Origin: Flavobacteriia bacterium
Lineage (GTDB): Bacteria > Bacteroidota > Bacteroidia > Flavobacteriales_D > Crocinitomicaceae
Direction: 5' to 3'
Length of the DNA: 53,873 nucleotides
Assembly (NCBI GenBank): GCA_947464135.1
Contig: CANHVK010000008.1
Location: 1 to 53,873, forward strand
Made by a program: the position numbers and the translations under genes. Below are positions 4,819 through 51,497 of this stretch, piece by piece. The notes below the pieces were generated by a model. It was given only the letters and a program-made list of their open reading frames with translations. It did no database searches and was not told the DNA's origin. Within the stretch, counting starts at the first letter, position 1; each line of letters opens with the position of its first letter.

Positions 4819-4820
4819 TC

Positions 4821-6029: not shown

Positions 6030-6031
6030 AA

Positions 6032-30920: not shown

Positions 30921-30922
30921 AA

Positions 30923-31345
30923 TTATCCTTTTTGACCAACAGCCATTAATGCAGCCATTTTCATTTTTTTAACCATACTTGCTAAACCATTCGAACGAGT
31001 AGGGGATAAGTGCTCATACAATCCTATTTCGTTGATAAAATGGAAATCACATTTTGCTATTTCTTCCGGTTTTTCGTTATCTAAAACACGAATGAGCATG
31101 GCAATGATTCCTTTAGTAATAATAGCATCTGAATCAGCTTCAAAATGCATTACATTTCCATCGAATGAAGCGTCCAACCAAACTTGAGATTGACATCCTT
31201 CAATAATTCTGTCTTTCGTTCTTTTGGCTTCATCGAATGGAGTAAGTTCGTTTCCTAAATCAATGATATATTGATATTTGTCCATCCAATCATCAAAGAT
31301 TGAAAACTCATCTATCAATTCTATTTGTTTCTCATTTAAGGTCAT
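30923..31345 (-). CDS. sufE: sulfur-acceptor protein SufE
   Basis: SufE (140 residues) accepts persulfide from the SufS cysteine desulfurase and hands it to the SufBCD scaffold. The acceptor is C51 in RIIEGCQSQVWL. The preceding YQYIIDLGNEL and the later LIRVLDNEKPEEI and HLSPTRSNGL are family-typical. It follows sufS by four bases, so desulfurase and acceptor are produced together. Confidence 0.95.
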   Translation of the reverse strand: MTLNEKQIELIDEFSIFDDWMDKYQYIIDLGNELTPFDEAKRTKDRIIEGCQSQVWLDASFDGNVMHFEADSDAIITKGIIAMLIRVLDNEKPEEIAKCDFHFINEIGLYEHLSPTRSNGLASMVKKMKMAALMAVGQKG

Positions 31346-31349
31346 ATCC

Positions 31350-32591: not shown

Positions 32592-32594
32592 TTA

Positions 32595-33347: not shown

Positions 33348-33366
33348 CTTTAAATACAAATGAAGC

Positions 33367-34635
33367 TTATTCGAAAGAATAACCTAATTTCTTCGCCATA
33401 AGTTTGGTGATGTGTTCACGAATAATTTCGTTTGAAATTTGTTCCACTACTTCACCAACAAATCCATTTATCATTAAGCTTTTAGCTGATTTTTCAGAAA
33501 TACCCCTTGCACGTAAATAGAAAATGGCTTCTTCATCAATTTGACCTGTTGTTGAACCGTGAGAACATTTTACGTCATCTGCATAGATTTCCAATTCAGG
33601 TTTAGAATTCATTGATGCATTGTCGCTTAATAATACGTTTCCATTGGATTGGAATGCATTAATTTTTTGTGCTTGTTCACGAACAAATACTTTTCCATTA
33701 AAAACACCCGTTGATTGTCCGTCTAATACTCCTTTGTATAATTCATTTGAATTACAATTTGGAACTTTATGGTCTATCACCGTATGGTTGTCTACCAATT
33801 GTTTTTCGTCAGTCAAATACAAACCATATAAGTTTGTTTCCGCATTTTCACCGTCTACATGAACATACACATTGTTACGAACAATAGCACCTGAAAATGT
33901 TGATGTAGATAAGCTAAATCGAGAATCTCTATCCTGACTTACCGTTTCTGTATTGATATGGAAATTTGTATTGTTTTCGTGTTGTATTTTATGGATGGAA
34001 AGTGAAGCGTTTTGTTTCACTTTAATTTCTGTAACTACATTGGTGAAATTTGAATCTGCCCGTTCTCCATAATAACCCATTACAATTGTTGCGTCCGAAT
34101 TTTCATTAGCAACTATGATATTGCGAACAGAAGATAAAACAGCTGTTCCGGTAGTTACATAGATAAGTTGAATTGGTTCTTTGATGATTGCATTTTTCGC
34201 AATTTCGATACTTACACCGTCTGTAGTAAAAGCGGTATTTAACGCGTTAAATACTTCTCCTTCCAATTGTACTTGTTGATTCGAATGAGCATTTATCCAT
34301 TCCTGAGTAGTCTCTGTAAGGGGAGATACAAGTAGTCCTTTCGTATCTTTAATTATTGAAAGTTCTGCTTGATAAAATCCATTTACAAAAACTAGTACAT
34401 TCCCTTGTAATCCTTCAATTAAATAATCTGAAACAGAATTAATTTCCGGTTTTACTAACTGAAAAGTACCATTGCTAATACGAGTAGTACGTGTATATTT
34501 CCACGCTTCTGTTTTCGTTGTTGGAAAAGCAGTTTCGTTTAATATTTCGAATGATTTTTTACGAAGACCTTGAGGTAATACCAAGGTATAACCATCCGTT
34601 GTTATGCGCTCGTGAAATTTTTTTGTTTCTTCCAT
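33367..34635 (-). CDS. sufD: SufD, Fe-S scaffold subunit
   Basis: SufD (422 residues) is a beta-helical partner of SufB in the SufBC2D scaffold complex where clusters are built. The N-terminal helical part has FPTTKTEAWKYTRTTRI, and the C-terminal beta-helix closes with DVKCSHGSTTGQIDEEAIFYLRARG-type residues typical of SufB/SufD, followed by GFVGEVVEQISNE. The conserved cluster-site His lies in KCSHGSTTG. It is 128 bases downstream of sufC; this gap holds interspersed repeats, so the scaffold genes are less tightly coupled than sufD-tlyA-sufS-sufE-sufT. Confidence 0.95.
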   Translation of the reverse strand: MEETKKFHERITTDGYTLVLPQGLRKKSFEILNETAFPTTKTEAWKYTRTTRISNGTFQLVKPEINSVSDYLIEGLQGNVLVFVNGFYQAELSIIKDTKGLLVSPLTETTQEWINAHSNQQVQLEGEVFNALNTAFTTDGVSIEIAKNAIIKEPIQLIYVTTGTAVLSSVRNIIVANENSDATIVMGYYGERADSNFTNVVTEIKVKQNASLSIHKIQHENNTNFHINTETVSQDRDSRFSLSTSTFSGAIVRNNVYVHVDGENAETNLYGLYLTDEKQLVDNHTVIDHKVPNCNSNELYKGVLDGQSTGVFNGKVFVREQAQKINAFQSNGNVLLSDNASMNSKPELEIYADDVKCSHGSTTGQIDEEAIFYLRARGISEKSAKSLMINGFVGEVVEQISNEIIREHITKLMAKKLGYSFE

Positions 34636-34680
34636 GTTAACCTAATTTGGTTATTCTGTAATTTCTGTATTCAATTTTTC

Positions 34681-34762
34681 TTCAGACAGATTGAGATTGA
34701 TTGTAGTCAAAGTCTATCGTAGGCTGATTTTCTCGAAGCCTGTCAAACTGAGCTTGTCGAAG
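34681..34762. repeat. degenerate interspersed repeat copies in the sufC-sufD gap
   Basis: The stretch holds a good copy TGTCAAACTGAGCTTGTCGA (34741-34760, then AG), a diverged one around 34712-34735 (GGCTGATTTTCTCGAAGCC) and a more decayed one at 34681-34710. All are in the same orientation as those at 30448-30614. The best copy ends one base before the sufC stop codon, the same placement as at sufT. Confidence 0.7.
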
Positions 34763-34763
34763 T

Positions 34764-35516
34764 TTACTCCCCAAACTCAGCTTTAATCCAATCGTACCCT
34801 TTTTCTTCTAACTCTAAAGCTAATTCTTTTGGTCCTGTTTTAACAATTCTTCCGTTGTAAAGAACATGAACGTAATCAGGTACGATGTAATCTAATAATC
34901 GTTGGTAATGTGTAATTACAATAGTAGCATTATCTTCTGATTTTAATTTTGTTACGCCTGTTGCAACAATACGTAACGCATCAATATCTAGTCCAGAATC
35001 TGTTTCGTCAAGAATGGCTAATTTAGGCTCTAACATTGCCATTTGGAAAATCTCGTTACGTTTTTTCTCTCCACCAGAGAAACCTTCGTTGACAGATCTA
35101 TTAGCCAATTTAGAATCTAATTCAACAATTTTCGATTTATCACGCACCATTTGCATGAAGTCTTTTGCTGAAATAGGATCTTGACCTAAATATTCACGTT
35201 TTTCGTTTAATGCAGTACGTAAGAAATTTACATTTGAAACACCAGGAATTTCTACTGGATATTGAAATGCTAAAAATAAACCTTCGCGTGCTCTATCTTC
35301 GGTTGAAAGTTCTAATAAATCCTTTCCATCGAAAGTTACATTACCATCAGTAATTTCATATTCTTCACGTCCAGCTAATACAGAAGCTAAGGTGCTTTTA
35401 CCAGCACCATTTGGCCCCATTATCGCGTGAACTTCTCCAGCTTTCACTTCTAAGTTTAAGCCTTTCAATATTTCCTTCCCGTTAATGGAAGTGTGTAAGT
35501 TATCTATTTTAATCAT
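34764..35516 (-). CDS. sufC: SufC, ABC-type ATPase of the Fe-S scaffold
   Basis: SufC (250 residues) is the cytosolic ABC ATPase that drives conformational change in SufBC2D. Walker A is GPNGAGKST (residues 34-42), the ABC signature is FSGGEKKRNE, and Walker B is LAILDETDSGLDID, with the SufC-typical ITHYQRLLDYIVPDYVHVL switch region. It has no membrane partner, as expected. It lies between sufB and sufD, separated from each by about 127 bases of repeat-rich DNA. Confidence 0.97.
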   Translation of the reverse strand: MIKIDNLHTSINGKEILKGLNLEVKAGEVHAIMGPNGAGKSTLASVLAGREEYEITDGNVTFDGKDLLELSTEDRAREGLFLAFQYPVEIPGVSNVNFLRTALNEKREYLGQDPISAKDFMQMVRDKSKIVELDSKLANRSVNEGFSGGEKKRNEIFQMAMLEPKLAILDETDSGLDIDALRIVATGVTKLKSEDNATIVITHYQRLLDYIVPDYVHVLYNGRIVKTGPKELALELEEKGYDWIKAEFGE

Positions 35517-35530
35517 TTTCTTTCTAAATT

Positions 35531-35620
35531 TTCCCCTTTGGAGGGGGAGTAAGGGGGAGGAAACACCCTTCGTTTACTATATTAATTTATCACCTCCCTC
35601 AATCCCTCCTCAAGGAGGGA
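35531..35620. repeat. G/C-rich imperfect inverted repeat in the sufB-sufC gap
   Basis: Two arms in opposite orientation, G-rich at 35531-35560 and C-rich at 35591-35620, are imperfect inverted copies of one element of the kind TCCCCTCCTTTGGAGGGG. Each arm is itself a small palindrome; the second forms a perfect hairpin TCCCTCC-TCAA-GGAGGGA (35603-35620). The base composition is far richer in G and C than the surroundings. This element type also recurs between genes in other Bacteroidota. It would fold strongly in the suf mRNA. Confidence 0.8.
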
Positions 35621-35643
35621 AGTGTAAATAATCTTAAAATCTT

Positions 35644-37095
35644 TTACCCTACTGATCCCTCCAAACTAATCGCTAATAACTTTTGTGCTTCAACAGCAAA
35701 TTCCATAGGTAATTGGTTTAGTACTTCTTTACAATATCCGTTCACAATTAAACTAATCGCTTTTTCTTCACTGATACCTCGTTGTAAACAGTAAAAAATT
35801 TGATCTTCTCCAATTTTAGAAGTTGTCGCTTCGTGCTCGATTTTCGCTGAGCTATTTTTACATTCTATATATGGAAATGTATGTGCTCCACAAGTATCAC
35901 CCATTAACAATGAATCACACTGTGAAAAGTTGCGAGCGTTTGCAGCGTTTTTGTGAATTTGAACCAATCCTCTGTATGAATTGTGTGATTTACCAGCAGA
36001 AATACCTTTAGATATGATGGTACTTTTGGTGTTTTTTCCAAGGTGAATCATTTTTGTTCCAGTGTCAGCTTGTTGATAATTGTTTGTTACTGCTACAGAG
36101 TAAAATTCACCGATTGAATTTTCACCTTTCAATATACACGAAGGATATTTCCAAGTTACCGCTGAACCAGTTTCTACTTGAGTCCAAGAAATTTTTGCGT
36201 TTTTCTCACATAAACCTCGTTTAGTCACAAAATTGAAAACTCCTCCTTTTCCTTCTGCATCACCAGGATACCAGTTTTGAACAGTAGAATATTTGATCTC
36301 TGCATTATCCAAAGCAATTAATTCAACTACCGCTGCGTGTAACTGATTTTCATCACGTTGTGGAGCAGTACATCCTTCTAAGTAAGAAACATATGCACCT
36401 TCATCTGCAACTACCAATGTTCTTTCAAATTGTCCCGTTCCACCTTCGTTTATACGGAAATAAGTAGATAATTCCATTGGACATCTAACTCCTTTAGGAA
36501 TGTAACAGAATGAACCGTCAGTAAATACAGCGCTATTTAGTGCTGCATAAAAATTATCTGTATGTGGTACTACTGTACCCATGTATTTTTTTACCAATTC
36601 AGGGTGCTCTTGAACAGCATCTGAAAAAGAACAAAAAATAATTCCTAGTTCATTTAACTTTGCTTTGAAAGACGTAGCAACAGAAACACTATCCATAACA
36701 AAATCAACGGCTACATTTGTTCCAGTTAATCGTTGTTGCTCATCCATTGAAATCCCCAATTTTTTCATGGTTTCTTTCAATTCAGGTTCAACATCATCCC
36801 AACTTTCGTATTTTTTCTTCTGTTTTGGAGCAGAATAATAGATGATGTCTTGAAAATTTGGTTTTTCGTAATGAACATGTGCCCACTCTGGCTCTGTCAT
36901 TTGTAACCAAGTTTTGAAAGCATTCAATCGATATTCCAACAACCATTCCGGTTCATTTTTCTTTGCAGAAATAAAACGAATAATGTCTTCATTCAACCCT
37001 TTTGGTGCTTGATCTGCTTCAATATTGGTTACAAAACCAAATTTATACTCTTGATTTTGTAAATCTTTGGCTAATTCATTTTCTGTATATGCCAT
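35644..37095 (-). CDS. sufB: SufB, Fe-S scaffold core subunit
   Basis: SufB (483 residues) is the central scaffold on which nascent [4Fe-4S] clusters form with sulfur from SufE and electrons from a flavin or other donor. Conserved parts include [40 protein letters not shown] and the C-terminal [19 protein letters not shown], which holds the cluster-site cysteine. It follows the A-type carrier gene by 12 bases. It is a full-length, family-standard protein. Confidence 0.97.
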
Positions 37096-37107
37096 TGTAG
37101 AAATTTT

Positions 37108-37431
37108 TTAAACGGAGAAACTTTCTCCACAACCACACGTTCTGTCTGCATTTGGATTTTGGAAAACAAATCCTTTTCCATTTAATCCTCCTGAAAAATC
37201 AAGTGTAGTGCCAATTAAATACAAGAAACTTTTTTTATCAACGACCACTTTTATGTCGTTATCAAAAAATTCTTTATCATCTTCTTTCATCTCATTGTCG
37301 AAAGTAAGTTGATACATTAAACCTGAACAACCTCCTCCTTGAACTCCAACACGGATGAAAAAACCTTCCTTGTTTTCGTCTTCCATTAATCTAATGGCTT
37401 GTTTTTTAGCGATATCTGTTACTTTTATCAT
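37108..37431 (-). CDS. sufA: A-type Fe-S carrier (SufA/IscA/ErpA family)
   Basis: This 107-residue HesB/IscA-fold protein transfers Fe-S clusters from the scaffold to target apoproteins. The three ligand cysteines are visible: one in GVQGGGCSGLMYQL and the pair in RTCGCGESFSV at the C-terminus. It heads the SUF operon, as is common in Bacteroidota. SufA, IscA and ErpA cannot be told apart reliably by sequence alone, so the symbol rests on the operon context. Confidence 0.9.
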   Translation of the reverse strand: MIKVTDIAKKQAIRLMEDENKEGFFIRVGVQGGGCSGLMYQLTFDNEMKEDDKEFFDNDIKVVVDKKSFLYLIGTTLDFSGGLNGKGFVFQNPNADRTCGCGESFSV

Positions 37432-37717: not shown

Positions 37718-40700
37718 ATGTTGAAAAATAAATACATATTGAATATTGATAACTTTTCATTTAAGTGTTTGATAAGTCTATTATTCGTTCTTTTATTTAC
37801 TTTAAATTCTAATGCACAGGCTGTTAATATTGCAGCAACGGCTTTAACAACTTCTGGAAATACTTACCCTGAAGATGGAATGTGTCCTGACACAAACAGA
37901 ATTATAGAAGTTAAAATAGTTAACAATGGTACTTCTAGCTTAAATGTTTCATCAACACCAGTAACTATCACAGTAAGCATATCAGGTCCAGTTGTAAAAT
38001 CTTTCACTACTATTTTTAATTCAGGTTCTCCAATTAGTCCTGGTGGTTCTAGATATGTAAGTGTTTCATCTAAAGGTGATTTTTCCAAAAAAGGAAAATA
38101 TACAGTTCAAATGTCCGCTACATGTACTGGGGACGCAAGCGTAGGGGTTGATCAAACAGAAACATTTTTAGTTAAGGGAGCTGAAATTTCCCTTTTTTCA
38201 GCTTTACCAACATCTTCACAAATAGTTTGTTTAAATTCACCAATTACTGATATTGTCTATGAAGTTGGAGCAAATGCAATATCAGCCACCGTTAATAATG
38301 ATAGTTTACCTACTGGAGTCACCTGGTCTTTCAATTATCCTAAGCTGACCATTAAAGGCACTCCAAGATCTAATACTAAATCTACTTTTAATTACTATGT
38401 AACAGCCAAATCATCTTGTGTACCTTCTCAAGATTCAATTTTAAAAGGTACAATAACTGTTAAAAGTTTACCTATAATCAAAATTGATGATAAATCGATA
38501 AACAAGCTTACCTGTTTTAACAATACAATTAATCTAAATGCGAGTGGAGGAAATTCATATTCTTGGTCTAATGGAGTAAATACTTCAAATATTTCTATTA
38601 ATTCACCTGATAAATATATAGTTTCTGGTTTTTTAAATGGATGTTCTAATAAAGATAGTATTACTATAACAGAAGATAAAGTCCCCCCACTTGAACCAGT
38701 TGGAAAAGACACGTCTATTTGTGAATCAGGTATTTTAACATTGAAAGTAACTACTACTGCAGGTACAACAGTGACCTGGTATGCATCTGATCAAATTACA
38801 CCTAGAGAATTTGGTTTGACTTATACTACTCCCAGTATATCTTCAAGCACAACTTATTATGTTGAAGCAAAAAATACAGCTACTGGTTGTGTTTCAACAA
38901 AAAAACCTATTAATATAATTGTAAACACTCCTCCAAGTAAACCAATTGCTTCAGATAGTTCTAGATGTGGACCAGGATCTTTAACTTTAAAAGCAACAAC
39001 TGATGTTGGAAATACTATCAATTGGTATGCATCTGACCAAACAAAATTACCTTCTACTGGTGAAACTTACACAACACCACCACTCACAAATACCACCACC
39101 TATTATGTTGAGTCAAAAAACACTTTAACAGGTTGTACTTCAACTTTGAAAACATCAATTTCAGCTATAATAAATACTTTTCCAAATGAGCCTACTGTAA
39201 TAGATAAATCTAGTTGTGGAGCAGGTACGGTAGAACTAAAGGTATCACTAAATGGTGTTGACCAGGTTGCCAGATGGTATACCAACCCTACTGGTGGCAC
39301 ATCAATATTTACTGGAGATACTTATACTACTGGGATTATAAGTAAAGATTCTACTTTTTATGTTGAGTCAGTAAATAGTTTGACAAAATGTACTTCTGTA
39401 AAAAGAGTTCCATTAAAAGTTACAATTAATTCAATTTTGTCTCCACCAACAGCTGCAGATGTGTCAAGGTGTGGCCCCGGAACTGTTACTTTACAAGCCA
39501 CAACTAGCACTGGTAAAGTAATTGATTGGTATGCTCAATCTTCTGGAGGAACTATTTTATCAACTGGAGACACATATACAACGTCAAGTATATCATCATC
39601 AATAAGTTATTTTGCTGAAGCTAGAGATCCATTAACAGGTTGTTTGTCATCATCTCGAAAAGAATTAAAAGTGAATATTATTCCTTTTAATACTTCTACA
39701 TCATTAAACCCTGATCAAACTCTGTGTTTCAATACACCATTAACAAATATTACTCATACAACAACTGGTGCGACTGGAATCGGAATAGCTTCATTTTTAC
39801 CAACAGGGGTAACAGCGCAGTGGTCGAATGATAGAATTACAATAAGTGGGACTCCGACTCAATCTGGTATATTTGATTACATAATACCTTTAACTGGAGG
39901 ATGTGGAACAATAAATGCAACAGGAAAAATTACAGTTAATGCAACTAATACAGTTTCAACAGCGAGCACAAGTCCTACTATATGTGTTAATACTCTTTTA
40001 ACGGATATTACGCATACAACAACCGGAGCAACAGGGATAGGGGCAGCGATTAATCTTCCAATTGGTGTTACAGCAAGATGGTCAAGAAATACGATAATCA
40101 TTAGTGGAACTCCAACACAATCAGGTATTTTTAATTATGAAATACCATTATCTGGTGGATGTGGGATAATAAAAGCAACAGGAAAAATTATTGTCAATGC
40201 TGAGAATACTGTTTCTACACCTAGCTCTAGTCCTTCTATTTGTGAGAATACACCATTAATTGATATAACACATTCAACAACAGGTGCATCAGGGATTGGT
40301 ATAGTTTCAAATTTACCTACGGGTTTGACTGTACTTTGGAGTGGTAATACAATTACAATAAGCGGAACACCAACCCAATTAGGCACTTTTAATTACGTTA
40401 TTCCATTGACTGGTGGATGTGGAACTGTAGCTGCGATTGGAAAAATAATTGTAAATCCTACAAATACTGTAAGTACAGCAAGTTCTAGCCCAACTCTATG
40501 TATTAATACTCCATTAACAAATATAACTCATACAACTACTGGAGCAACAGGGATAGGAGTAGCTACGAATTTGCCTACAGGTCTTACAGCACTTTGGTCT
40601 GGTAATATGATTACAATAAGCGGGACACCATCACAATCAGGTACTTTTGATTATGAAATTCCGTTAATTGGAGGTTGTGGAAATATTAAAGCTATTGGAA

Positions 40701-43700
40701 AAATAATTGTTAATCCTGGTAATACTGTTACTGTAGCAAGTTCTAGTCCTACACTTTGTATTAATACGCCATTAACAGACATAATACATACAACCACTGG
40801 TGCGACAGGAATTGGTAGTGTGTCAAATTTGCCAATAGGTTTAACTGCGCAAAGATCTGGAAATACAATTACAATAAGCGGAACACCAACCCAATTGGGA
40901 ACTTTTGATTACGTTATTACTTTGACTGGTGGATGTGGAACAGTTAGTGCAACCGGAAAAATTATTGTAAACCCTTCAAATACAGTAGGTTCTGCTAGTG
41001 CAACCCCAACACTATGTATTAATACACCATTAACAAATATAACTCACACAACAACTGGAGCAACAGGTATAGGCCCAGCAACGAAATTACCGTTAGGAGT
41101 AACAGCGGATTGGTCAGGGAATAAAATAACTATAAGCGGAACCCCAACACAATCAGGAACTTTTGATTATATTATTCCTTTAACAGGTGGGTGCTCAGGG
41201 GTTAATGCAACTGGAAAAATTATTGTAAATCCTGAAAATACTGTAAGTGCAGCAAGTTCAAGTCCAACTTTGTGTGTGAATACTAATTTAACAAGTATTA
41301 CACATACTACAACAGGTGCAACCGGTATCGGATCAGTTTCCAATTTACCTTCAGGAGTAAGCGCTTCTTGGTCAGGTAATATGATAACAATTAGTGGTAA
41401 GCCAACTCAATCGGGTACTTTTAATTATAGTATACAATTAATAGGGGGGTGTGGTTCTGTATCAGCAACTGGTAAAATAATTGTAAACTCAATACCTGTA
41501 ATATCAAAATTAGAAGGTAAAACTAAAATATGTTTGGGTGATTCAACCATTTTATCTAGTAATACAATTGGGGGAGTATGGTCAAGTGTATCTACAAATG
41601 TTGCAACAATTAATACCTTTACAGGTAAAGTGTTATCAGTAGCTGCTGGTTCCACAAAAATTATTTATTCTTTAACGATTGAAGGCTGTTCAAATTCAGT
41701 AGATACCACAGTAACTATAAATGCGATGCCAGTTGTGGCAGATATTTTAGGGAATTCTACTTTATGTGTCGGTGATAAAACAACATTAACAAATATAACT
41801 TCAGGTGGTATTTGGACGAGTACGTCTCCAACTGTTGCTTCTATTTCTAGTAATGGAGAATTATTAGGTTTGTCAGAAGGTATTACAAAAATTAATTACT
41901 CAGTAACAACTTTAGGTTGTACCACAACTAAAACATTTGATGTAGCAGTAAGTTCTTATCCAATAGTTGCAGACATAGTTGGTTCATCAGATATTTGTGA
42001 AGGTTCAACTGCTACTTTATCTAATACAACAAAACCGGGAGTTTGGTCGTCTCAAAATACAAATATAGTTTCAGTCAATGCTTTTGGTCTTATTACTGGA
42101 TTAGGCGCAGGATCAACAATTATTGATTATACCGTTAAAAACGCAAATTGTATAACTAAAAAATCAATTACAATTACCGTTAAATCAGCATTGTCTGTAT
42201 CCCCAATTATTGGTACTACTGATATTTGTATAGGTGCGACATCTAAACTTACGGATCAGACACCAGGGGGTACTTGGAGCAGTTCTGATCCCACTGTTGC
42301 AACGATTGATGGGACAGGTTTAGTGAAATCTGTAAAAGTTGGTTCAACAATAATTAGATATGATGTTTTAACAAATGGAGTTTGTCCTGAATTCGCCCAA
42401 GTTGTTTTTACCGTAAATCAAATACCAACTGTAAATGCGATTTCTGACATTACAGTTTGTGAAGGATCCAATGTATCAAAAGTTACCTTTACAGGTACAG
42501 GTTCACCAGTTTATCATTGGACTAATAATAATCCATCTATAGGTTTAGTTTCAATAGGTACAGGTGAAATACAATCATTTAAAGCTAAAGGTCCTTCTAT
42601 AGGTAGTTCATCTGAAATAGCAGTAATTAATATAACACCAATAGCAAATGGCTGTTCTGGTAGTTCAAAACAATTTTTAATTACTGTAAATGCTCGAGAT
42701 AATGCAGGATTTAAATACTCATCTAATTCATTTTGTAAATTAGATGCAAATCCTTCTCCAATTATTACTGGTTTAACTGGTGGAACTTTTATTACTTCTT
42801 CTGTAAATTTAAATGTTAATTCATCTTCTGGTATAGTAGATTTAGCATCAAGTACCCCGGGATATTATAAGATCACATATAGAACAAATGGTACATGTCC
42901 AAATGATTCAATTATAGATTTTGCAATTTCTGATTTACCAACAGTAAATCCTTTAGCAGATCAACAAGTTTGTGATGGTACAAACTTTAATCCAATCAAT
43001 TTTTCAGGAGCACCTGGAACAATTTATAATTGGATAAATGACAATTCAAATATTGGATTAGCTTTATCTGGAACCGGAAATATCTCTGCTTTTACAGCTA
43101 AAGGTACTTCTATCGGTGCTTCTTCCATTCAAAGTAAAATAATTGTTACACCTACTTCGGGTTCTTGTGTAGGTATTAAAGATACTTTTTTATTAACCGT
43201 AAATCCGAAAGATAATCCTTCATTTACTTATCCAAGTACATCATTTTGTTCTTCTGGTATAGATCCTAATCCTACAGCTAATATTACGGGTAAATCTGGT
43301 GGAGTTTTCACAATGTCTCCATCAGGTGCGATTTTTAATGCTAATAATGGAACAATTACATTATCAACATCGAATGCTGGTGCATATGCACTTACATATA
43401 CTACAAATGGTTCTTGTGCAAATTCTCAAACCATTAACATTACGATTGGTAGTAACCCTTCTGTTAATTCTGTAACATCTCAGTCCATTTGTTCAGGTAG
43501 CGCATTTGACCCTATAAATTTTACAGGAACTCCTGGTACTACATTTAATTGGACTTCTAGTAATTCTGCTCTAATAGGATTAGCGAATAGCGGAGTTGGA
43601 AGTATTTCTTCTTTCATAGGTTCAGGTGCATCTTTAACTTCACCATTAATTACTTCCGCTATTACTGTTACTCCTAAAATAGGATCGTGTACTGGATCTT

Positions 43701-46700
43701 CAAAAACGTTTAATTTATCCATTAGATACAAAGATGATGTTGCTATTTCATATGCTGAAAAATCATACTGTACTTCTAATTCTAATCCATTACCTTCTCT
43801 AACTGGAACATTAGGTGGTGAATTTACAGCTTTACCAGTCGGTTTAATTATAAATAATACGACAGGCCAGATAAATATTGGTTCTTCAGCAGAAGGTGTG
43901 TATGTTGTTAAATATATTACTACTGGTTTATGTGGTGATACAGCAAGTGTACCAATTGCAATAAATAATTCTCCTTCTGTTAATAATATTCCAGATCAAA
44001 CTGTTTGTTCAGGAAATAGTTTTGCTTCTGTTAATTTTACTGGAACACCAGGAACAATTTATAACTGGACAAATTCTAATTCAGATATTGGATTAGCTTT
44101 ATCAGGTACTGATACTATTCTGTCTTTTATTGGTAAAAATCCAGGAAATACAAAATTAACTTCAACGATAACAGTTACTCCTAAATCAGGTGCTTGTTTT
44201 GGAGCAGTTAAAACATTTCAATTATCTGTAAATCCATCTGAAAATGCTTCATTTAATTATGATTATTCTTCTGTTTGTCAAAATAACCCAAGTTTAAAGC
44301 CAACTTTACAAGGTGCCAAAAATGGAGTTTTTTCATCTTCAGCTGGATTAAATTTAAATCCTAATTCTGGTGAGATAAATGTAGGAGCATCTCTTCCTGG
44401 AACTTACAATATAGTATATAAAACAACAGGTACTTGTTTTGGAATTGAATCTAATTTGTTAACGATAAATCCAATTCCAAATGTAAATAATTTGTCAAAT
44501 TCTCAGAAATGTCAAGGTGAATTATTCGATCCAATAAGTTTCTCAGGTACTATCGGATCTACATATACTTGGATTAATAGTAATACAAATATTGGTTTAG
44601 TTTCTTCTGGATCCGGAAATATTTCTTCATTTAAAGCAAGTGGCACTACGATTGGAAGTAATCCTGTAAGTGCGGTTTTAACTGTAACACCATCAATCAA
44701 TGGTTGTAGTGGTCCTTCTAAATCAATGATTTTAACAACAAATAGCTTGGATAATCCAGGATTTTCCTATTTAAGTAATTCATTTTGTTTAACAGAGCCT
44801 AATCCAACACCAACCTTATCTGGAAATGTTGGTGGGATTTATAGTGTAAATCCAACTTCAGGTTTAACTATAGATCCTTCAACAGGAACTTTAGATTTAT
44901 CTACGGCCATTCCTGGTAATTATATGGTTACTTATAGTACGAATGGGTTTTGTAAAAATGATAGTACGATTTCAATTTCTGTAGGAACTGGCCCAAGTGT
45001 TCAATCAGTTCAAAATCAAGTGAGTTGTCAAAATACACCATTCAATGCTATTAATTTTCAAGGTGCTCCAGGAACAGTGTATGAATGGACAAATTCAAAT
45101 ACTCTAATTGGTTTACAAGCAAGCGGAGTAGGAAATATTAATTCATTTGTAGCAAATGGTACATCAGTTAATGGTTCTAATATTTCTTCTACAATTACTG
45201 TCACGCCTAAGATAGGAGCATGTATCGGAATTCCAATTACATTTAATTATACCGTTAAGCCTTTGGATAATGCCAATTTTTCTTATGCAAATTCTTCATA
45301 TTGTAAAAATCAAATAAATCCTACACCCGTAATTTCTGGAGTACAAAGTGGTACTTTTTCGTCTTCACCTATTGGTTTATCAATGAATTCAATAGGAACA
45401 ATAAATTTAGCAACATCAACTTCTGGAAATTATACAATTACTTATACTACTCACGGTCAATGTCCAAATGTATCATCAATACCAATGTCAATTGGATCAA
45501 GCGCATCTGTAAATCCAATTTCAGACACTACTGTTTGTTTAGGAAATAATTTTTCTAAAATAATTTTTAAAGGTAATCCTGGAACTATATTTAATTGGAC
45601 AAATAACAATCCGAGTATTGGTATAGCAGCATCTGGTGTGGGAGACATTTCTTCATTTCAATCTAAAAATGTTGGAAATGCAATTTTTGTAGTAACCCCT
45701 GTTATTGGTTCTTGTGTAGGAAATCCACAATCATTCACTTTAAATGTAAATTCAGTTCAAAATTCTTCGATTTTATATGGTCAGACTTCCTATTGTAAAT
45801 CGGTGGATTCTGATCCGACACCTATTCAAACAGGTCCTAATAATGGTGTTTTTAGTTCAAGTCCTGCTGGTTTAGATTTAAATTCAACAAGTGGAAAAAT
45901 AAATTTATCTAATTCAAATGCTGGTGATTATGTTATAACTTATTCTTTAACAAGTCAGTGTTCTACTTCATCAAATACAACTGTTTCAATTGGTGCTGGT
46001 CCAAGAGTAAATACTATCAAAGTCGATCCGATTTGTAACGGAGCCACTTTTAATGATATTGATTTCTCAGGGTCACCAGGTACACAATTTACTTGGGTAA
46101 ACAGTAATACTAAGATCGGTTTAGGAGCATCAGGTGTTGGGAATATACCTGGTTTTGTTGGAATTAACAATACTAATTCTTCTATTACTTCGAATATCAC
46201 TGTTACACCAAAAATTGGAACATGTTCTGGTACTCCAATGTCTTTTGATTTAGTAATTAGACCTTCAGATAACCCAGATTTTGAATATACATCTACCAAT
46301 ATTTGTTACAATGCATCTGACTTAACTCCAGATCTTAAAGGTACAAAAGGTGGTGTTTTTTCATCGAATCCATTAGGGTTAAATTTAAATGCATCATCTG
46401 GAAAAGTGAATGTTTCAGTTTCTACACCTGGATCATATAACGTAACATATTTAACAAATGGTATTTGTCCAAAGGCAAAAACAATTGCTATTACATTAAA
46501 TCCATTACCATATGTAAATAATATATCTGTTAATCCTAAATGTCAGGGGTCAACCTTTACATCAATTAGTTTCAATGGTTCTCAAAACACAACTTTTAGT
46601 TGGAAAAACTCAAATACATCAATTGGATTAGGGGCATCTGGAATAGGTATAATACCTTCTTTTATTGCTTCAGGAACATTGAAAAATGGCGCAAGTATAT

Positions 46701-49700
46701 CTGGTATTGTAGTCGTTACTCCTGAAATAAATGGTTGTTTTGGAAGTACGATGTCATTTCCTTTAACAGTTAATTCCTTAGATGACGCATCGTTTAAATA
46801 TGCTAAGTCATCAATTTGTCAAACAGATATTAATCTTACTCCCATTTATAACGGAACAACAGGTGGGATATTTTCATCTTCTCCTTCTGGCCTTTCAATA
46901 AATGATATTACGGGTAGAATTACAATTGCTACATCGACAATTGGTTCTTATAATATTACCTATACAACTAAAGGTTTATGTCCAGATGATACAACAATTT
47001 CTGTTGTAATTAATCCATTGCCTTTAGTGAACAACATTACAAATCAAAGTAGATGTTTTGGAGATTCTTTTAATCCGATAATTTTTAGTGGAAGCTCTAA
47101 TACAACTTTTAATTGGGTAAATTCTAATTCAAATATTGGATTGACTAACTCAGGGGTAGGTAATATAAACGCTTTCATAGCTAAAGGAACTGTCTTTGGT
47201 GGAAATTCAATAGTTGGGAATGTAAGTGTTACTCCTGAAATTAACGGATGTTTTGGATTACCTAAAAGTTTTGATTTAACTGTGAATCCAATCGATAATC
47301 CGGCATTTCATTATGATGATGATTCATATTGTATTATTATTGGTCAAGCAAATCCTACACCAAAAATAGATGGGACTTTAGGTGGTACCTTTACATCCTT
47401 TCCAACAGGTTTAAATATTAATAGTTTATCTGGATTGATAGATTTGAATCTTTCAAATCCTGGTACCTATAAAATAAAATATACTACACCAGGAAATTGT
47501 AAGGATGATTCAACAGTAACGATAGGTGTTGGTAATAATCCTTATGTTGATGATGTTGATGATCAAAGTTATTGTCAGGGAGATATGTTTGATAAAGTAC
47601 TTTTTACAGGTGGTTTAGGAACTATATTTGAATGGACAAATAATAATAGTACTGTAGGGTTATCTTCATCTGGAAAAGGAGATATTTCAGGATTTAAAGC
47701 ATCTGGTACAATTGATGGTGGAAGTGATTTATTTGCGACTATTTCTGTGTTGCCAAGAATTGGTAAATGTCAAGGAAAAATAGTAAATTTCAAATATAAA
47801 GTAAGAGCAAATCCTAAGATCATTGCATCAATTGCAAATACATCCAAACAAGATACGTCGTTTTGTAAGGGTGGAAATGCAATTCTTTCAGCAGTAGGAG
47901 CTTCAAAAAATGATAATTATGTGTGGACCCCTCACACATCTCTTGTAGGAAACTTAGGTATAGGTTCAATTGTTACAACGAAAACAGATAGTACGCAACA
48001 ATATATAGTCAGGGGTCAATCACAATTTGGTTGTTATAATTACGACACTTTGGTTGTCAAAGTATACAATCCTAATGTTGAACAGAAACAAGATACAATT
48101 TTATGCGCTGAATCAAAGGTTAACTCGATTCCATTTGTTTCTAAATTGCCAGGTACAATATTTGAATGGTCAAATTCGAATCCAAATATAGGACTTAGCT
48201 TTAATGGAAATGGAAATATAAATTCTTTTACAGCTAAAAATAATACGAATCTATCAAAACAAACTTCTGTAATATCTGTTACACCTAAATATTTTATTTC
48301 ATCAATAAATAAGATATGTACTGGCACAGTTATGAAGTTTAATATTTCTGTTAATAAATTGGATGATCCTACATTTAGTGGATATTTAGCTCAATACTGC
48401 GCAAATGAAACGGCGAATACGATTCCTGTTATTTCTGGTGTTAAAGGAGGTATTTTTTCAGCATTACCTACAGGTTTAGCATTAAATTCCAATTCAGGAG
48501 AAATATTTCCTATTTCTTCTAAGCCTGGAAGTTATAGTGTTAAATATACTACAAATGGAGCTTGTTCTAAATCAGATTCTATTTTTCTTTTTATTAATCC
48601 ACTAGTTAATGCATCAATTTCAGGAGCTGATACAGTTTGTTTAAATGCTGTTTCTCCACAAATTAAATTTAAAGGAGAAAATGGTGTTGCTCCTTATATT
48701 TTTAAATATAAAATTAACGGAGGTGCCATTCAAACTGTTTCTACAGGCCCAGGTAAAGAAGAAATTTCAGTTTCTGTTCCTACTAATAAAACGGGGGTTT
48801 ATAGTTATCAGTTGATTAGTGTTGAGGAATCTAGTTCATCACGTTGTTTAAATAATAATGTTTTTGGAATACAAAATGTGATTATCAATGACTTACCAAA
48901 GGCTCAAATTACATCTACTAATTCAATCGTTTGTGTTGGAGGGGTAAGTCCTGAAATTAGAATTACAGGTATAAATGGGGTTTCGCCATTTACATTTACT
49001 TATTTCGTCTCAAAAGATGGTAACCCATTTGGACCATCACAAACAATAAGTACAACACAAGGTCAATTTTTGGCTAAAATCCCCGTTAGTACTAATGATC
49101 CTGGAATTTATAATTACACGGTTAATGTTGTAAAAAATGGAGACAATTTATCTTGTTCTAATAATATAAATATTTCTCAAACAGTAACTATTAAGCCTTT
49201 ACCATTAGGAACGTTGACAGCTAGCCCTGTTGGTGTTTGTATGAATGGAGATGCAAATATTGAATTTAAAGCTTCTAATGGTACACCTCCATTTACTTTT
49301 GTTTATTCTATAAATAATACTGGTAGCCAGACAATAAAAACATTAAACAATGTCTACTCTGTTTTATTAAAAGCAAACACTTCAACTTCAGGAATATTAA
49401 ACTACAAATTAATAAGTATTTCTGATGGAGATGTTACAAGTTGTCAAAATAATTCAGTTAATAATTCGGTCGACTTAAATGTTACACCAGGAACAAAAGT
49501 CAATAAAGTACAAGATATAAATGTCTGTGTGAATGAAAAATCTGACACAATTGAGTTTACAGGAGGGATTAGCGGAACAAAATATGATTGGGTTTCAAAT
49601 AATACAACTATTGGTATAGCTGGTTTAGGTTCTGGAAATTTAATGCCATTTGTAGCTAAAAACAATTCTGGTTCAACAACTAATATTGCTAAGATTACTG

Positions 49701-50752
49701 TTACTCCATCAATAGGTCAATGTATAGGTGAAGTAATGAATTTTGATATAGTTGTAAGACCAAAACCAAAAGCCAAAATAAATTCTTCAAATACTGTCTG
49801 TCCGGGTGATTCGGTAAAATTGGAAGGGCTAGGTTCAGAGTTAAAATATGTCTGGACCCCGAATGTTTCATGTATAACTTGTAATCCAGTTTTTGCAAAA
49901 CCAACAGAAAATACAACTTATAAGGCATTTGTTACAGATAAGTATAATTGTTTTGACTCAACAGAATTTGATGTTGTTGTATATAAAAAACCAGAAATAA
50001 AAATTGATGAACCTGTTGTTTGTGGTGAACCAGAATTAGTAACCCTAAAAGGGAAGGGAAATAATACTTACACTTACAATGAAGGAATTGTCGATGGTGT
50101 GCCTTTTATGCCTAAGAAAGGAAAATCATTTTATCTTGTTACTGTCAAAGATAATTTAGGTTGTAAAGCTACTGATACAGTCAATGTTTATGTTGTTGAT
50201 AAACCAGCTTCGAAATTTTCAGCATCGACTGAAACGGGGTTAGCTTCTGATTTGAAACCATTGAATATATTACTTACTAATAAAAGTTTAAATTCTTCAG
50301 AATTTGAGTGGTATTTTAGAAATGGAGATGAGTCACCTATCATAAAAAACACATTGGAACCAGTAACAGCTTTATATAAAAAGCCTGGTATTTATGTAAT
50401 TACGTTAATTTCTAAAAATGGAAAATGTATTGACTCTAGTTCCATTTCAATTAAAATTGATAAATTAGATACTCCTAGAGTAGAAATCGCACCAAATGTA
50501 TTTACCCCAGATAATGATGGAACTAATGATTTTTTCTTTTTGTCAGTTAAAAATGCAAAAAATATATATGTAACTATTTTTAATAGATGGGGAAATCCAG
50601 TATATGAAATGACTGAGACATCACAAACTTGGGATGGCAGTATAAATGGTAAAGATGCTGATGAAGGGGTGTATTATTATCAATACGAGATAGAGGGTAG
50701 TAGTGGAGAAAAAGTGAAAGGTCAAGGGTATGTCCAACTAATACGGAATTAA
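37718..50752 (+). CDS. giant secreted multi-Ig/PKD repeat protein with type IX secretion (CHU_C, type B) sorting domain
   Basis: This uninterrupted 4344-residue protein (estimated near 450 kDa) has a signal peptide ending at A33 (LNSNA before QAV). After an N-terminal CARDB-like segment (about 50-150) come homotypic blocks: four Ig_7-type modules (323-663), seven near-identical 86-residue modules (664-1259), four BIG2-like modules (1260-1569), twelve PKD-like units of mostly about 170 residues (1570-3629), three more Ig-like modules (3630-3925), a thirteenth PKD-like module, a PKD domain and the C-terminal T9SS sorting domain (4257-4344). The last has the diagnostic PNVFTPDNDGTNDFF, IFNRWGNPVYE and WDGSINGKDADEG motifs. 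Such proteins are exported through the outer membrane by T9SS and act as surface adhesins or matrix proteins; that role is inferred. No PorP/SprF partner gene is adjacent. The protein is rich in Ser, Thr, Asn and Gly, with paired cysteines in most modules. Confidence 0.93.
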   Translation: MLKNKYILNIDNFSFKCLISLLFVLLFTLNSNAQAVNIAATALTTSGNTYPEDGMCPDTNRIIEVKIVNNGTSSLNVSSTPVTITVSISGPVVKSFTTIFNSGSPISPGGSRYVSVSSKGDFSKKGKYTVQMSATCTGDASVGVDQTETFLVKGAEISLFSALPTSSQIVCLNSPITDIVYEVGANAISATVNNDSLPTGVTWSFNYPKLTIKGTPRSNTKSTFNYYVTAKSSCVPSQDSILKGTITVKSLPIIKIDDKSINKLTCFNNTINLNASGGNSYSWSNGVNTSNISINSPDKYIVSGFLNGCSNKDSITITEDKVPPLEPVGKDTSICESGILTLKVTTTAGTTVTWYASDQITPREFGLTYTTPSISSSTTYYVEAKNTATGCVSTKKPINIIVNTPPSKPIASDSSRCGPGSLTLKATTDVGNTINWYASDQTKLPSTGETYTTPPLTNTTTYYVESKNTLTGCTSTLKTSISAIINTFPNEPTVIDKSSCGAGTVELKVSLNGVDQVARWYTNPTGGTSIFTGDTYTTGIISKDSTFYVESVNSLTKCTSVKRVPLKVTINSILSPPTAADVSRCGPGTVTLQATTSTGKVIDWYAQSSGGTILSTGDTYTTSSISSSISYFAEARDPLTGCLSSSRKELKVNIIPFNTSTSLNPDQTLCFNTPLTNITHTTTGATGIGIASFLPTGVTAQWSNDRITISGTPTQSGIFDYIIPLTGGCGTINATGKITVNATNTVSTASTSPTICVNTLLTDITHTTTGATGIGAAINLPIGVTARWSRNTIIISGTPTQSGIFNYEIPLSGGCGIIKATGKIIVNAENTVSTPSSSPSICENTPLIDITHSTTGASGIGIVSNLPTGLTVLWSGNTITISGTPTQLGTFNYVIPLTGGCGTVAAIGKIIVNPTNTVSTASSSPTLCINTPLTNITHTTTGATGIGVATNLPTGLTALWSGNMITISGTPSQSGTFDYEIPLIGGCGNIKAIGKIIVNPGNTVTVASSSPTLCINTPLTDIIHTTTGATGIGSVSNLPIGLTAQRSGNTITISGTPTQLGTFDYVITLTGGCGTVSATGKIIVNPSNTVGSASATPTLCINTPLTNITHTTTGATGIGPATKLPLGVTADWSGNKITISGTPTQSGTFDYIIPLTGGCSGVNATGKIIVNPENTVSAASSSPTLCVNTNLTSITHTTTGATGIGSVSNLPSGVSASWSGNMITISGKPTQSGTFNYSIQLIGGCGSVSATGKIIVNSIPVISKLEGKTKICLGDSTILSSNTIGGVWSSVSTNVATINTFTGKVLSVAAGSTKIIYSLTIEGCSNSVDTTVTINAMPVVADILGNSTLCVGDKTTLTNITSGGIWTSTSPTVASISSNGELLGLSEGITKINYSVTTLGCTTTKTFDVAVSSYPIVADIVGSSDICEGSTATLSNTTKPGVWSSQNTNIVSVNAFGLITGLGAGSTIIDYTVKNANCITKKSITITVKSALSVSPIIGTTDICIGATSKLTDQTPGGTWSSSDPTVATIDGTGLVKSVKVGSTIIRYDVLTNGVCPEFAQVVFTVNQIPTVNAISDITVCEGSNVSKVTFTGTGSPVYHWTNNNPSIGLVSIGTGEIQSFKAKGPSIGSSSEIAVINITPIANGCSGSSKQFLITVNARDNAGFKYSSNSFCKLDANPSPIITGLTGGTFITSSVNLNVNSSSGIVDLASSTPGYYKITYRTNGTCPNDSIIDFAISDLPTVNPLADQQVCDGTNFNPINFSGAPGTIYNWINDNSNIGLALSGTGNISAFTAKGTSIGASSIQSKIIVTPTSGSCVGIKDTFLLTVNPKDNPSFTYPSTSFCSSGIDPNPTANITGKSGGVFTMSPSGAIFNANNGTITLSTSNAGAYALTYTTNGSCANSQTINITIGSNPSVNSVTSQSICSGSAFDPINFTGTPGTTFNWTSSNSALIGLANSGVGSISSFIGSGASLTSPLITSAITVTPKIGSCTGSSKTFNLSIRYKDDVAISYAEKSYCTSNSNPLPSLTGTLGGEFTALPVGLIINNTTGQINIGSSAEGVYVVKYITTGLCGDTASVPIAINNSPSVNNIPDQTVCSGNSFASVNFTGTPGTIYNWTNSNSDIGLALSGTDTILSFIGKNPGNTKLTSTITVTPKSGACFGAVKTFQLSVNPSENASFNYDYSSVCQNNPSLKPTLQGAKNGVFSSSAGLNLNPNSGEINVGASLPGTYNIVYKTTGTCFGIESNLLTINPIPNVNNLSNSQKCQGELFDPISFSGTIGSTYTWINSNTNIGLVSSGSGNISSFKASGTTIGSNPVSAVLTVTPSINGCSGPSKSMILTTNSLDNPGFSYLSNSFCLTEPNPTPTLSGNVGGIYSVNPTSGLTIDPSTGTLDLSTAIPGNYMVTYSTNGFCKNDSTISISVGTGPSVQSVQNQVSCQNTPFNAINFQGAPGTVYEWTNSNTLIGLQASGVGNINSFVANGTSVNGSNISSTITVTPKIGACIGIPITFNYTVKPLDNANFSYANSSYCKNQINPTPVISGVQSGTFSSSPIGLSMNSIGTINLATSTSGNYTITYTTHGQCPNVSSIPMSIGSSASVNPISDTTVCLGNNFSKIIFKGNPGTIFNWTNNNPSIGIAASGVGDISSFQSKNVGNAIFVVTPVIGSCVGNPQSFTLNVNSVQNSSILYGQTSYCKSVDSDPTPIQTGPNNGVFSSSPAGLDLNSTSGKINLSNSNAGDYVITYSLTSQCSTSSNTTVSIGAGPRVNTIKVDPICNGATFNDIDFSGSPGTQFTWVNSNTKIGLGASGVGNIPGFVGINNTNSSITSNITVTPKIGTCSGTPMSFDLVIRPSDNPDFEYTSTNICYNASDLTPDLKGTKGGVFSSNPLGLNLNASSGKVNVSVSTPGSYNVTYLTNGICPKAKTIAITLNPLPYVNNISVNPKCQGSTFTSISFNGSQNTTFSWKNSNTSIGLGASGIGIIPSFIASGTLKNGASISGIVVVTPEINGCFGSTMSFPLTVNSLDDASFKYAKSSICQTDINLTPIYNGTTGGIFSSSPSGLSINDITGRITIATSTIGSYNITYTTKGLCPDDTTISVVINPLPLVNNITNQSRCFGDSFNPIIFSGSSNTTFNWVNSNSNIGLTNSGVGNINAFIAKGTVFGGNSIVGNVSVTPEINGCFGLPKSFDLTVNPIDNPAFHYDDDSYCIIIGQANPTPKIDGTLGGTFTSFPTGLNINSLSGLIDLNLSNPGTYKIKYTTPGNCKDDSTVTIGVGNNPYVDDVDDQSYCQGDMFDKVLFTGGLGTIFEWTNNNSTVGLSSSGKGDISGFKASGTIDGGSDLFATISVLPRIGKCQGKIVNFKYKVRANPKIIASIANTSKQDTSFCKGGNAILSAVGASKNDNYVWTPHTSLVGNLGIGSIVTTKTDSTQQYIVRGQSQFGCYNYDTLVVKVYNPNVEQKQDTILCAESKVNSIPFVSKLPGTIFEWSNSNPNIGLSFNGNGNINSFTAKNNTNLSKQTSVISVTPKYFISSINKICTGTVMKFNISVNKLDDPTFSGYLAQYCANETANTIPVISGVKGGIFSALPTGLALNSNSGEIFPISSKPGSYSVKYTTNGACSKSDSIFLFINPLVNASISGADTVCLNAVSPQIKFKGENGVAPYIFKYKINGGAIQTVSTGPGKEEISVSVPTNKTGVYSYQLISVEESSSSRCLNNNVFGIQNVIINDLPKAQITSTNSIVCVGGVSPEIRITGINGVSPFTFTYFVSKDGNPFGPSQTISTTQGQFLAKIPVSTNDPGIYNYTVNVVKNGDNLSCSNNINISQTVTIKPLPLGTLTASPVGVCMNGDANIEFKASNGTPPFTFVYSINNTGSQTIKTLNNVYSVLLKANTSTSGILNYKLISISDGDVTSCQNNSVNNSVDLNVTPGTKVNKVQDINVCVNEKSDTIEFTGGISGTKYDWVSNNTTIGIAGLGSGNLMPFVAKNNSGSTTNIAKITVTPSIGQCIGEVMNFDIVVRPKPKAKINSSNTVCPGDSVKLEGLGSELKYVWTPNVSCITCNPVFAKPTENTTYKAFVTDKYNCFDSTEFDVVVYKKPEIKIDEPVVCGEPELVTLKGKGNNTYTYNEGIVDGVPFMPKKGKSFYLVTVKDNLGCKATDTVNVYVVDKPASKFSASTETGLASDLKPLNILLTNKSLNSSEFEWYFRNGDESPIIKNTLEPVTALYKKPGIYVITLISKNGKCIDSSSISIKIDKLDTPRVEIAPNVFTPDNDGTNDFFFLSVKNAKNIYVTIFNRWGNPVYEMTETSQTWDGSINGKDADEGVYYYQYEIEGSSGEKVKGQGYVQLIRN
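38684..39706 (+). repeat. block of four Ig_7-type modules
   Basis: Four tandem modules of about 80-85 residues share a C-G-x-G-x-x-x-L-x-x-T start, a W-Y-A or W-Y-T core (TINWYASDQ, VIDWYAQSSGG), a GDTYTT strand and a closing YYVE-x-x-N-x-x-T-x-C. They are well diverged from each other at the DNA level, so this is an older expansion than the next block. Confidence 0.85.
39707..41494 (+). repeat. seven tandem copies of an 86-residue (258-bp) module
   Basis: Consecutive copies repeat with a 258-base period. Each has C-x-N-T-P-L-T-x-I-T-H-T-T-T-G-A, LPxGxTAxWSGN, ITISGTPTQSGTF and IPLTGGCG, ending GKIIVNP. Copies 3 and 5 share the variant TPTQLGTF and long runs of identical DNA, and copies 4 and 6 resemble each other, suggesting duplication of a two-unit (516-bp) segment. 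Each copy keeps two cysteines. Confidence 0.93.
41495..42424 (+). repeat. block of four BIG2-like modules
   Basis: Four modules of about 77 residues follow the bacterial Ig-like 2 pattern: a C-x-G-x-x-x-L start, GGxWSSxxxxVAxI, a GxVxxxxxGSTxIxY core and a terminal C before TITV. They are diverged in DNA sequence. Confidence 0.8.
42425..48604 (+). repeat. twelve tandem PKD-like two-part units (mostly about 510 bp)
   Basis: Each unit of about 170 residues has part A (V-N-x-I-x-x-x-x-x-C-x-G, then FxGxPGTxxxWxNSNxxIGL, ASGxGNIxSF and ITVTPxxGxCxG) and part B (DNxxFxY, a C-containing start, GTxGGxFSSxPxGLxxN and GxYxITYTTxGxCP). Unit 11 lacks part B and instead carries another Ig-like module (TSFCKGGNAILSAVG); unit 12 restores the A-B order. 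A thirteenth A part stands alone near residue 3926. Confidence 0.9.
48605..49492 (+). repeat. block of three Ig-like modules of about 98 residues
   Basis: The copies share V-C-x-x-x-x-S-P-x-I-x-x-x-G-x-N-G-x-x-P-F-x-F-x-Y, a central strand and a G-x-x-x-Y-x-x-x-x-V ending with a C-x-N. They interrupt the PKD-like array between units 12 and 13. Confidence 0.8.
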
Positions 50753-50786: not shown

Positions 50787-51497
50787 ATGGGAAGAGCGTT
50801 TGAATACCGAAGAGCAGCTAAGGAAAAACGTTGGGATAAAATGTCTAAACTATTTCCTAAGTTAGGTAAAGCAATTACAATGGCAGCAAAAGAAGGTGGT
50901 GAGGATCCATCTATGAATGCAAAATTGAGAACAGCAATACAAAATGCAAAAGCTCAAAATATGCCTAAAGACAATATCGATGCTGCAATCAAAAGAGCGA
51001 CACAAAAGGATCTTGCTAGTTTTAGTGAAATTATTTATGAAGGTAAAGGTCCACATGGTGTTTTAGTATATGTAGAATGTGCTACAGATAATCCTACAAG
51101 AACTGTTGCAAATGTAAAATCATATTTTAATAAAGTTGGCGGGACTATTGTTCCAAATGGACAATTGGAATTTATGTTTAGTAGAAAGTCAGTTTTTGAG
51201 CTACATAAAAAAGAAGGTGTAGATCCAGAAGAAATTGAATTAGAATTGATTGACGCTGGTTGTGAGTCTATTGAGGTAGAAGATGAAAAAATGTATGTAT
51301 ATGGTGACTTTACATCTTTTGGTACACTATCTAAGGCTATTGATGATTTGCAATTAGAAGTATTAAAAGCAAATTTACAACGCATACCTACATCACCAGT
51401 TGACCTTAATGAGGAACAAATGGTAGACGTTGAAAAATTATTAGACAAAATTGAAGAAGATGATGATGTTCAACAAGTCTTTACCAATATATCATAA
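50787..51497 (+). CDS. yebC: YebC/PmpR/TACO1-family protein
   Basis: This 236-residue protein belongs to the YebC family. Members have been annotated as DNA-binding regulators, and more recent work links the group to translation of proline-rich or difficult stretches (TACO1-like). It opens with [20 protein letters not shown], includes the helical [19 protein letters not shown] region and [20 protein letters not shown], and ends [13 protein letters not shown]. It starts 34 bases after the giant gene with no terminator between, so it may be partly co-transcribed. A hairpin follows its stop. Confidence 0.95.

Follow-up and report, generated by a model that had tools for sequence, protein, structure and literature searches.

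Long multidomain proteins with a stalk of repeated immunoglobulin (Ig)-like modules and a C-terminal CHU_C domain are described as fibrillar adhesin-like proteins, and a survey counts 134 that carry CHU_C, all from Bacteroidetes (PMC8286594). Among other giants, SprB of Flavobacterium johnsoniae is a very large type B substrate of the type IX secretion system (T9SS) and an adhesin of about 200 nm (PMC12635249), with sprF directly downstream of its gene (PMC12618676), and GhpA of Aureispira sp. CCB-QB1 (PDB 9flp and related entries) is a chain of Ig-like modules, 5898 amino acids (aa) long, that is secreted by the T9SS and forms a heptamer (PMC11205867). Here we describe a giant gene of 4344 codons in a 53,873-nucleotide stretch of the genome of a lake bacterium (Flavobacteriia, Crocinitomicaceae; assembly GCA_947464135.1, contig CANHVK010000008.1), the whole of which we call the window.

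Both hallmarks of fibrillar adhesins, repeated stalk modules and a C-terminal anchor, are found in the encoded protein, which differs from the surveyed proteins in that no Pfam adhesive domain was found in it and in that comparison across its genus documents a stalk of constant length and one exchange of the tip. It resembles SprB in size and as a type B protein, and unlike the SprB gene its gene has no sprF downstream. With GhpA it shares the giant chain of Ig-like modules and a matching C-terminal domain, whereas GhpA is longer and builds a heptameric hook. The kind of protein is ordinary; the division between stalk and outer arm is unusually well resolved, and there is one clear exchange of the tip between species, in a relative. 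The account we favor, with some reserve, is that the giant is a T9SS-exported fibrillar adhesin with a constant stalk and an exchangeable recognition tip.

A constant stalk behind a changing arm

We compared the assembly that contains the window (G000; 2.31 Mb, 84% complete, 104 contigs) with twelve genus mates (G001-G012). A sequence-only reading of the DNA had proposed a single long frame, and this was borne out: the gene is one open reading frame (ORF) that runs from the ATG at position 37718 without an internal stop, and a frame of similar length at the same place in relatives speaks against chance. The type B sorting domain also proposed there exceeds the cut-off of both relevant models, with the C-terminus scoring 69.4 bits against CHU_C in a Pfam profile search (cut-off 27; residues 4258-4341) and 53 bits against TIGR04131 (cut-off 35; residues 4259-4341). 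The other Pfam matches are Ig_7 (PF19081, 171.9 bits) and Big_2 (PF02368, 29.3 bits).

Iterated profiles and module profiles divide the protein into about 50 beta-sandwich modules. A signal-like start is followed by modules N, S and W, four A, seven B and four C modules, and ten a-b pairs with an eleventh a; beyond these lie an X-like module, an a-b pair, three E modules, another a, module X, one further module, a PKD-like module and CHU_C. Module a spans about 90 aa and b about 80 (about 171 residues per pair), and the G000 protein has 13 a and 11 b in total. Homotypic blocks of 4, 7, 4, 12, 3 and 1 had been predicted; the four Ig_7 (A), seven B, four C and three E modules stand, but the block of 12 counted only one of two alternating module types, and the largest block is thus a heterotypic one. 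The G011 counterpart of the PKD-like module matches Pfam PKD at 26.4 bits (cut-off 23.5).

Each of the 45 modules of types N, S, W, A, B, C, a, b and E contains exactly two cysteines. This suggests that every such module has one disulfide, and to judge from this pattern the stalk is probably disulfide-stapled. A predicted structure of two a-b pairs had a mean predicted local distance difference test (pLDDT) score of 94 and a predicted template modeling (pTM) score of 0.70. By fold it matches cadherins, other Ig chains and fragments of GhpA, at template modeling (TM) scores of 0.2-0.4, low values that are expected for bent chains of small domains.

From the first a module to the C-terminus the protein measures 2771-2782 residues in nine (G000-G004 and G007-G010) of the 11 genomes with a whole stalk, which G005 and G006 lack. 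In G011 this part is 2936 residues, about one pair more, and G012, outside that count, also has about one pair more, with an ambiguous stalk start that gives 3158 aa (from a 9-bit b) or about 2947 (from a 12-bit a). Every a (13/13), b (11/11) and E (3/3) module of G000 has its best partner at the same position in the sister genome G002. The corresponding numbers are 8/13 a and 7/11 b for G001, 6/13 and 6/11 for G008, and 6/13 and 7/11 for G010, with little positional match to G011 and G012, whose module counts differ; modules spanning about 60 residues or less are left out of this comparison, among them weak a calls (9-12 bits) at the X-like position that appear as an extra a in length strings. 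Comparison of G000 with G001 gives 25-37% identity before residue 1401, where 7-28 residues in every 200 lack a match, then 48-61% for residues 1401-3800, where 0-7 in 200 do, and again less, 35-36%, over residues 3801-4200. The claim that each such protein has a block order and copy number of its own fits the N-terminal arm; the C-terminal part of about 2775 residues keeps order, number and length in nine of the 11 genomes.

We rejected total length as a conserved ruler. Complete giants measure 4344 (G000), 4340 (G001), 4340 (G003), 4341 (G004), 4356 (G008), 4341 (G009) and 4726 aa (G010), so that six of seven fall within 4340-4356 aa even though G000 and the other five differ in the modules that make up their arms. 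The G000 match may be chance, because the other five share ancestry, G010 is longer and the partial G011 frame already has 4941 aa; we keep the constant-length argument for the stalk alone.

Ahead of the stalk, the arm consists of A4-B7-C4 in G000, of 17 Big_2-like modules in G001, G003, G004, G008 and G009 (with a weak first module, at 24-32 bits, in the position of W in G000), of 22 Big_2-like modules in G010, and of nine a-b pairs plus four C modules in the assembled part of G011. These labels derive from G000 profiles, and Pfam agrees in that Ig_7 is over its cut-off in G000 and unreported in G001. In the G010 giant (L072), modules 5-9 are 80, 57, 88, 88 and 96% identical to modules 10-14, a tandem duplication of five modules that explains its 386 extra residues. 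The B copies of G000 are 64-79% identical to one another and 54-70% identical to those of G002 (three copies, one partial), without positional match, whereas the C modules of the two genomes are 53-72% identical at the same position versus at most 52% elsewhere.

B modules also occur in other ORFs, at more than 90 bits in G003, G008, G009, G010 and G012 (646-2611 aa, several cut by contig ends) and at 54-80 bits in G001, G007 and G000 itself. In the assembled sequence of those mates' giants, which for G007 and G012 is partial, no B block was seen. Two B-module ORFs (L185 and L191) among nine such regions have a CHU_C-type end, and the others are cut by contig ends or have none. Modules appear, from these sequences, to be shared among cargo genes.

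Large ORFs in L184, L185, L188 and L190 combine B modules with an N-terminal WY(V/L)ND-type motif, with an Ig_7 module in addition in G000:C50; this group is a possible source or sink of modules. A 1187-aa ORF on contig C5 of G007 (L189, 3436-6996) has ten B-like modules.

Exchange of the tip between two relatives

G001 and G004 are sister species by YebC and RsmI (support 99). Their giants are 79-95% identical in DNA, per 150-base window, over codons 289-4344 and 49-75% identical before that, and G004 matches G003 at 92-95% over codons 50-240 and at 54-87% elsewhere. The synonymous difference (pS) between G003 and G004 is 0.16 in the tip versus 0.59 in the stalk. In 60-codon windows, where the median for this pair is 0.59, codons 1-241 give 0.28, 0.19, 0.17 and 0.14. 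Among 21 species pairs (drawn from six complete giants plus the 5' portion of G007) there is no other stretch of successive low windows; other pairs show isolated dips to 0.37-0.44. G001 and G004 are the mirror image, with pS of 0.52-0.65 in codons 1-241 against a median of 0.28, and have three high windows too at codons 3425, 3665 and 3725.

Trees of five species agree with these values. The tip tree groups G003 with G004 (100/100) and rejects G001 with G004 (approximately unbiased (AU) test, p 1.25e-4), whereas the stalk tree groups G001 with G004 (100/100) and rejects G003 with G004 (AU p 2e-42); the groups were chosen after the identities had been seen, and the p values are descriptive. 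The exchanged tract corresponds to about the tip domain and most of the next module. By these sequence comparisons, the outermost domain of the G004 giant came from another species. In G004 (L069), sufA and the start of sufB are also nearer G003 (90.4 and 93.3% versus 84.3 and 89.2% to G001), and yebC and rsmI are nearer G001, so more than one tract may have moved. The exchange lies in relatives of the window's genome, whose own tip is at most 48% identical to any compared (G005); the G002 tip is not in its assembly and stands outside this comparison.

Residues of about 4070-4245 in the G003 giant (L068), before the sorting domain, diverge unusually far from G001, G004 and G009, with 51-69% DNA identity in most windows, possibly a second exchanged tract.

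The tip domain has no Pfam adhesive-domain match, and the fold matches of its model are generic beta-sandwiches. Positive selection at the tip was considered and is unsupported, with pairwise dN/dS of 0.19-0.34.

It could be that stalk length reflects slow insertion and deletion in folded modules and that the outer differences are neutral repeat turnover, with no special role for tip or spacer. This account would suit the colinear orthology of modules in near relatives, the dN/dS values, which stay below 1 for all pairs and parts tested, and the finding of just one clear tip exchange. However, the distal arm changed in module type and number and the stalk of the same gene did not, and the boundaries of the exchanged tract roughly match a domain and most of its neighbor. 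We hold the neutral account to be possible but on the unlikely side, and prefer a constant stalk that carries an exchangeable tip.

Proposed export, anchoring and functions

SprA is nearly full length in G000 (2406 bits), and one contig (C76, L182) carries porU (665 bits, cut by the contig end), porP/sprF, gldJ and murF side by side, with the porP/sprF shuttle gene directly before gldJ. GldM has no match in this 84%-complete assembly; as it is present in 11 of 12 genus mates (the sole mate without it is 59% complete) and G001 has porP-gldK-gldL-gldM-gldN in one row, an assembly gap is the likelier cause. The sequence-only reading had named absence of T9SS core genes, or a sorting domain below the TIGR04131 cut-off, as the findings that would count against it; SprA, PorU, PorP and GldJ are present, and the domain exceeds that cut-off. 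The genome-wide porP/sprF search it proposed finds seven genes in G000. Together with the sorting domain, these genes leave the T9SS cargo reading well supported.

That no PorP/SprF gene adjoins the giant was correctly observed (a yebC-like gene follows), but it is not unusual as had been thought. Of 21 CHU_C matches in G000 we kept 17, dropping four under the cut-off, and a PorP/SprF match lies within 100 bp of only four of these. Among the other 13, the giant included, three have PorP/SprF at a distance of 5-19 kb and the contigs of the other ten carry none, counts in which contig ends could hide a few neighbors. Across the genus, none of the PorP/SprF matches listed falls on the sequenced part of the giant locus, and the nearest on the giant's contig is more than 20 kb away. 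In F. johnsoniae nine of 12 type B genes have a porP/sprF neighbor and three orphans share one unlinked shuttle (PMC12618676). Those orphans are likewise type B cargo without adjacent porP/sprF, although they make up 3/12 there (PMC12618676) versus 13/17 in G000; since such orphans are known, the lack of a downstream porP/sprF is not disqualifying. With most type B cargo in G000 unlinked, it may be that each of a few unlinked PorP/SprF proteins serves many cargos. Three G000 shuttles have no cargo gene within 5 kb, those on C76 (beside gldJ), C57 and C10. In these, as in the linked shuttle on C40, the C-terminus is preceded at 4-5 residues by a cysteine (C76 has two tail cysteines, 12 residues apart); those on C7, C61 and C1 have none.

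These genes bear on an SprB-like role, in which the fiber would ride a GldJ/GldK track via a shuttle and propel the cell. GldJ is found in 13/13 genus genomes (12 over cut-off), which by gene content would make gliding possible, and porU, porP and gldJ share one G000 contig. The tail cysteines of the C76, C57, C10 and linked C40 shuttles resemble those by which SprF binds GldK (PMC12635249), yet SprF has a Cys-X-Cys pair where the shuttles here have a single tail cysteine or, in C76, the spaced two. Moreover, no shuttle is assigned to the giant, the reading is drawn from genes, and type B sorting domains may serve static proteins too (PMC12618676). A gliding adhesin seems to us rather doubtful.

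We judge a grappling hook of the GhpA type, catching prey before killing (ixotrophy), to be improbable. In its favor, searching PDB sequences gave a single strong match, GhpA (E 5.9e-40 for G000 and 1.7e-44 for G001), which contains a matching C-terminal domain (i-Evalue 7.9e-5) and whose fragments are the best bacterial fold match of the stalk model (E 6.8e-11, TM-score 0.3-0.4), second to protocadherin. But the sequence matches sit in common Ig_7/Big_2-like arrays with strong composition bias, and neither the tip profile (best E 0.24 against PDB sequences) nor the a-b profile (best E 0.012) matches GhpA significantly. The heptamer and hook are known for GhpA and none is known for the giant; TssD of the type VI secretion system (T6SS) was found in 0/13 genomes, where the control was also silent. 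The fold search with the tip model has no GhpA row among 50 entries listed and carries no weight either way. GhpA is the nearest solved structure and, by sequence, apparently the same kind of protein.

For a fibrillar adhesin we propose the following course. The giant would enter the periplasm through Sec, where the two cysteines of each module would pair, and SprA would pass it across to the outside. A PorP/SprF protein unlinked to any cargo gene (C76 next to gldJ, C57 or C10) would hold the C-terminus at the outer membrane, and the stalk would raise array and tip above the cell by perhaps 100-200 nm. The tip, and perhaps the array too, would bind a target such as a surface, a particle, an alga or another cell. 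While the stalk would be kept constant as a spacer and load-bearer, duplication, the sharing of modules with other cargo genes and recombination at the tip would retune the outer part.

The locus, its neighbors and significance

Table 1. Features of the giant gene and its two neighbors (window coordinates)
Feature	Coordinates	Strand	Basis or remark
Whole giant gene, 4344 aa	37718..50752	+	
Signal-peptide-like N-terminus, residues 1-33	37718..37816	+	Hydrophobic stretch ending NSNAQA, by eye
Tip domain N (34-152), predicted beta-sandwich	37817..38173	+	Counterpart of the segment exchanged in G003/G004
Modules S (155-250) and W (251-321)	38180..38680	+	Profiles
Four Ig_7 modules (A)	38681..39682	+	Pfam PF19081 and profiles
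Seven 86-aa B modules	39701..41494	+	64-79% identical in protein, 64-78% in DNA
Four Big_2-like modules (C)	41498..42418	+	PF02368 and profiles
Stalk, ten alternating a-b pairs and eleventh a (1570-3362)	42425..47803	+	Profiles, two-pair model
X-like module (3363-3451), then a-b (3452-3627)	47804..48598	+	X-like mainly judged from sequence
Three E modules (3627-3923)	48596..49486	+	Profiles
a (3927-4013), X with four Cys (4014-4096), further module (4097-4164)	49496..50209	+	
PKD-like module P (4165-4245)	50210..50452	+	Label from sequence
CHU_C / TIGR04131 type B sorting domain (4254-4344)	50477..50749	+	
sufA-like gene, divergent neighbor	37108..37431	-	Name by resemblance; same position in genus loci reaching that end
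yebC-like gene, downstream neighbor	50787..51497	+	Name by resemblance; same position in genus loci reaching that end

The six genus mates in which the locus is fully assembled have sufA, giant and yebC in the order seen in the window (Table 1). The six other mates have partial contigs only, and each shows the expected neighbor at the end or ends present. A scan of the giant gene for promoters and terminators gave counts at or below shuffle means.

Among 20 family and order loci of other genera, judged from ORFs resembling window genes, there is no comparable giant and no suf cluster at yebC, and one unrelated-looking 23% sufS match. We dropped the idea that the giant's site is confined to the genus: in one other genus (G023, L098) the gene immediately upstream of yebC, cut by the contig end, is a CHU_C gene with PKD modules (4039-6105), and the site may therefore be an older one for cargo. 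Near yebC in G025 (L092, 13060-15741), an 893-aa ORF has one a-type stalk module (69 bits), and this module type is therefore not confined to the genus either.

Upstream in the window (30615-37431) is a suf-type iron-sulfur cluster that encloses a tlyA-like rRNA methyltransferase gene, names again given by resemblance; genus loci L078-L081 show the same order over the part that they cover. A 422-aa protein encoded at 27493-28761 has a signal-like start and no Pfam match.

Giant surface proteins of Bacteroidota are often noted singly. Here a giant retained by one genus at a fixed locus makes it possible to tell a constant part (about 2775 residues of stalk and anchor) from a changing array and tip. 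Among the titles and abstract openings listed in literature searches, which reached little of the subscription literature, none reported an exchanged tip or a stalk of constant length for a giant T9SS protein. We put forward only tentatively the broader proposal that the genus as a whole maintains a constant-length spacer with a recognition cassette, and that co-occurring species swap the N-terminal domain by recombination. The natural tip swap could be used to test specificity. If the proposal is true, target specificity, or escape from a phage or grazer that exploits the tip, could change in one step with stalk and anchor fixed.
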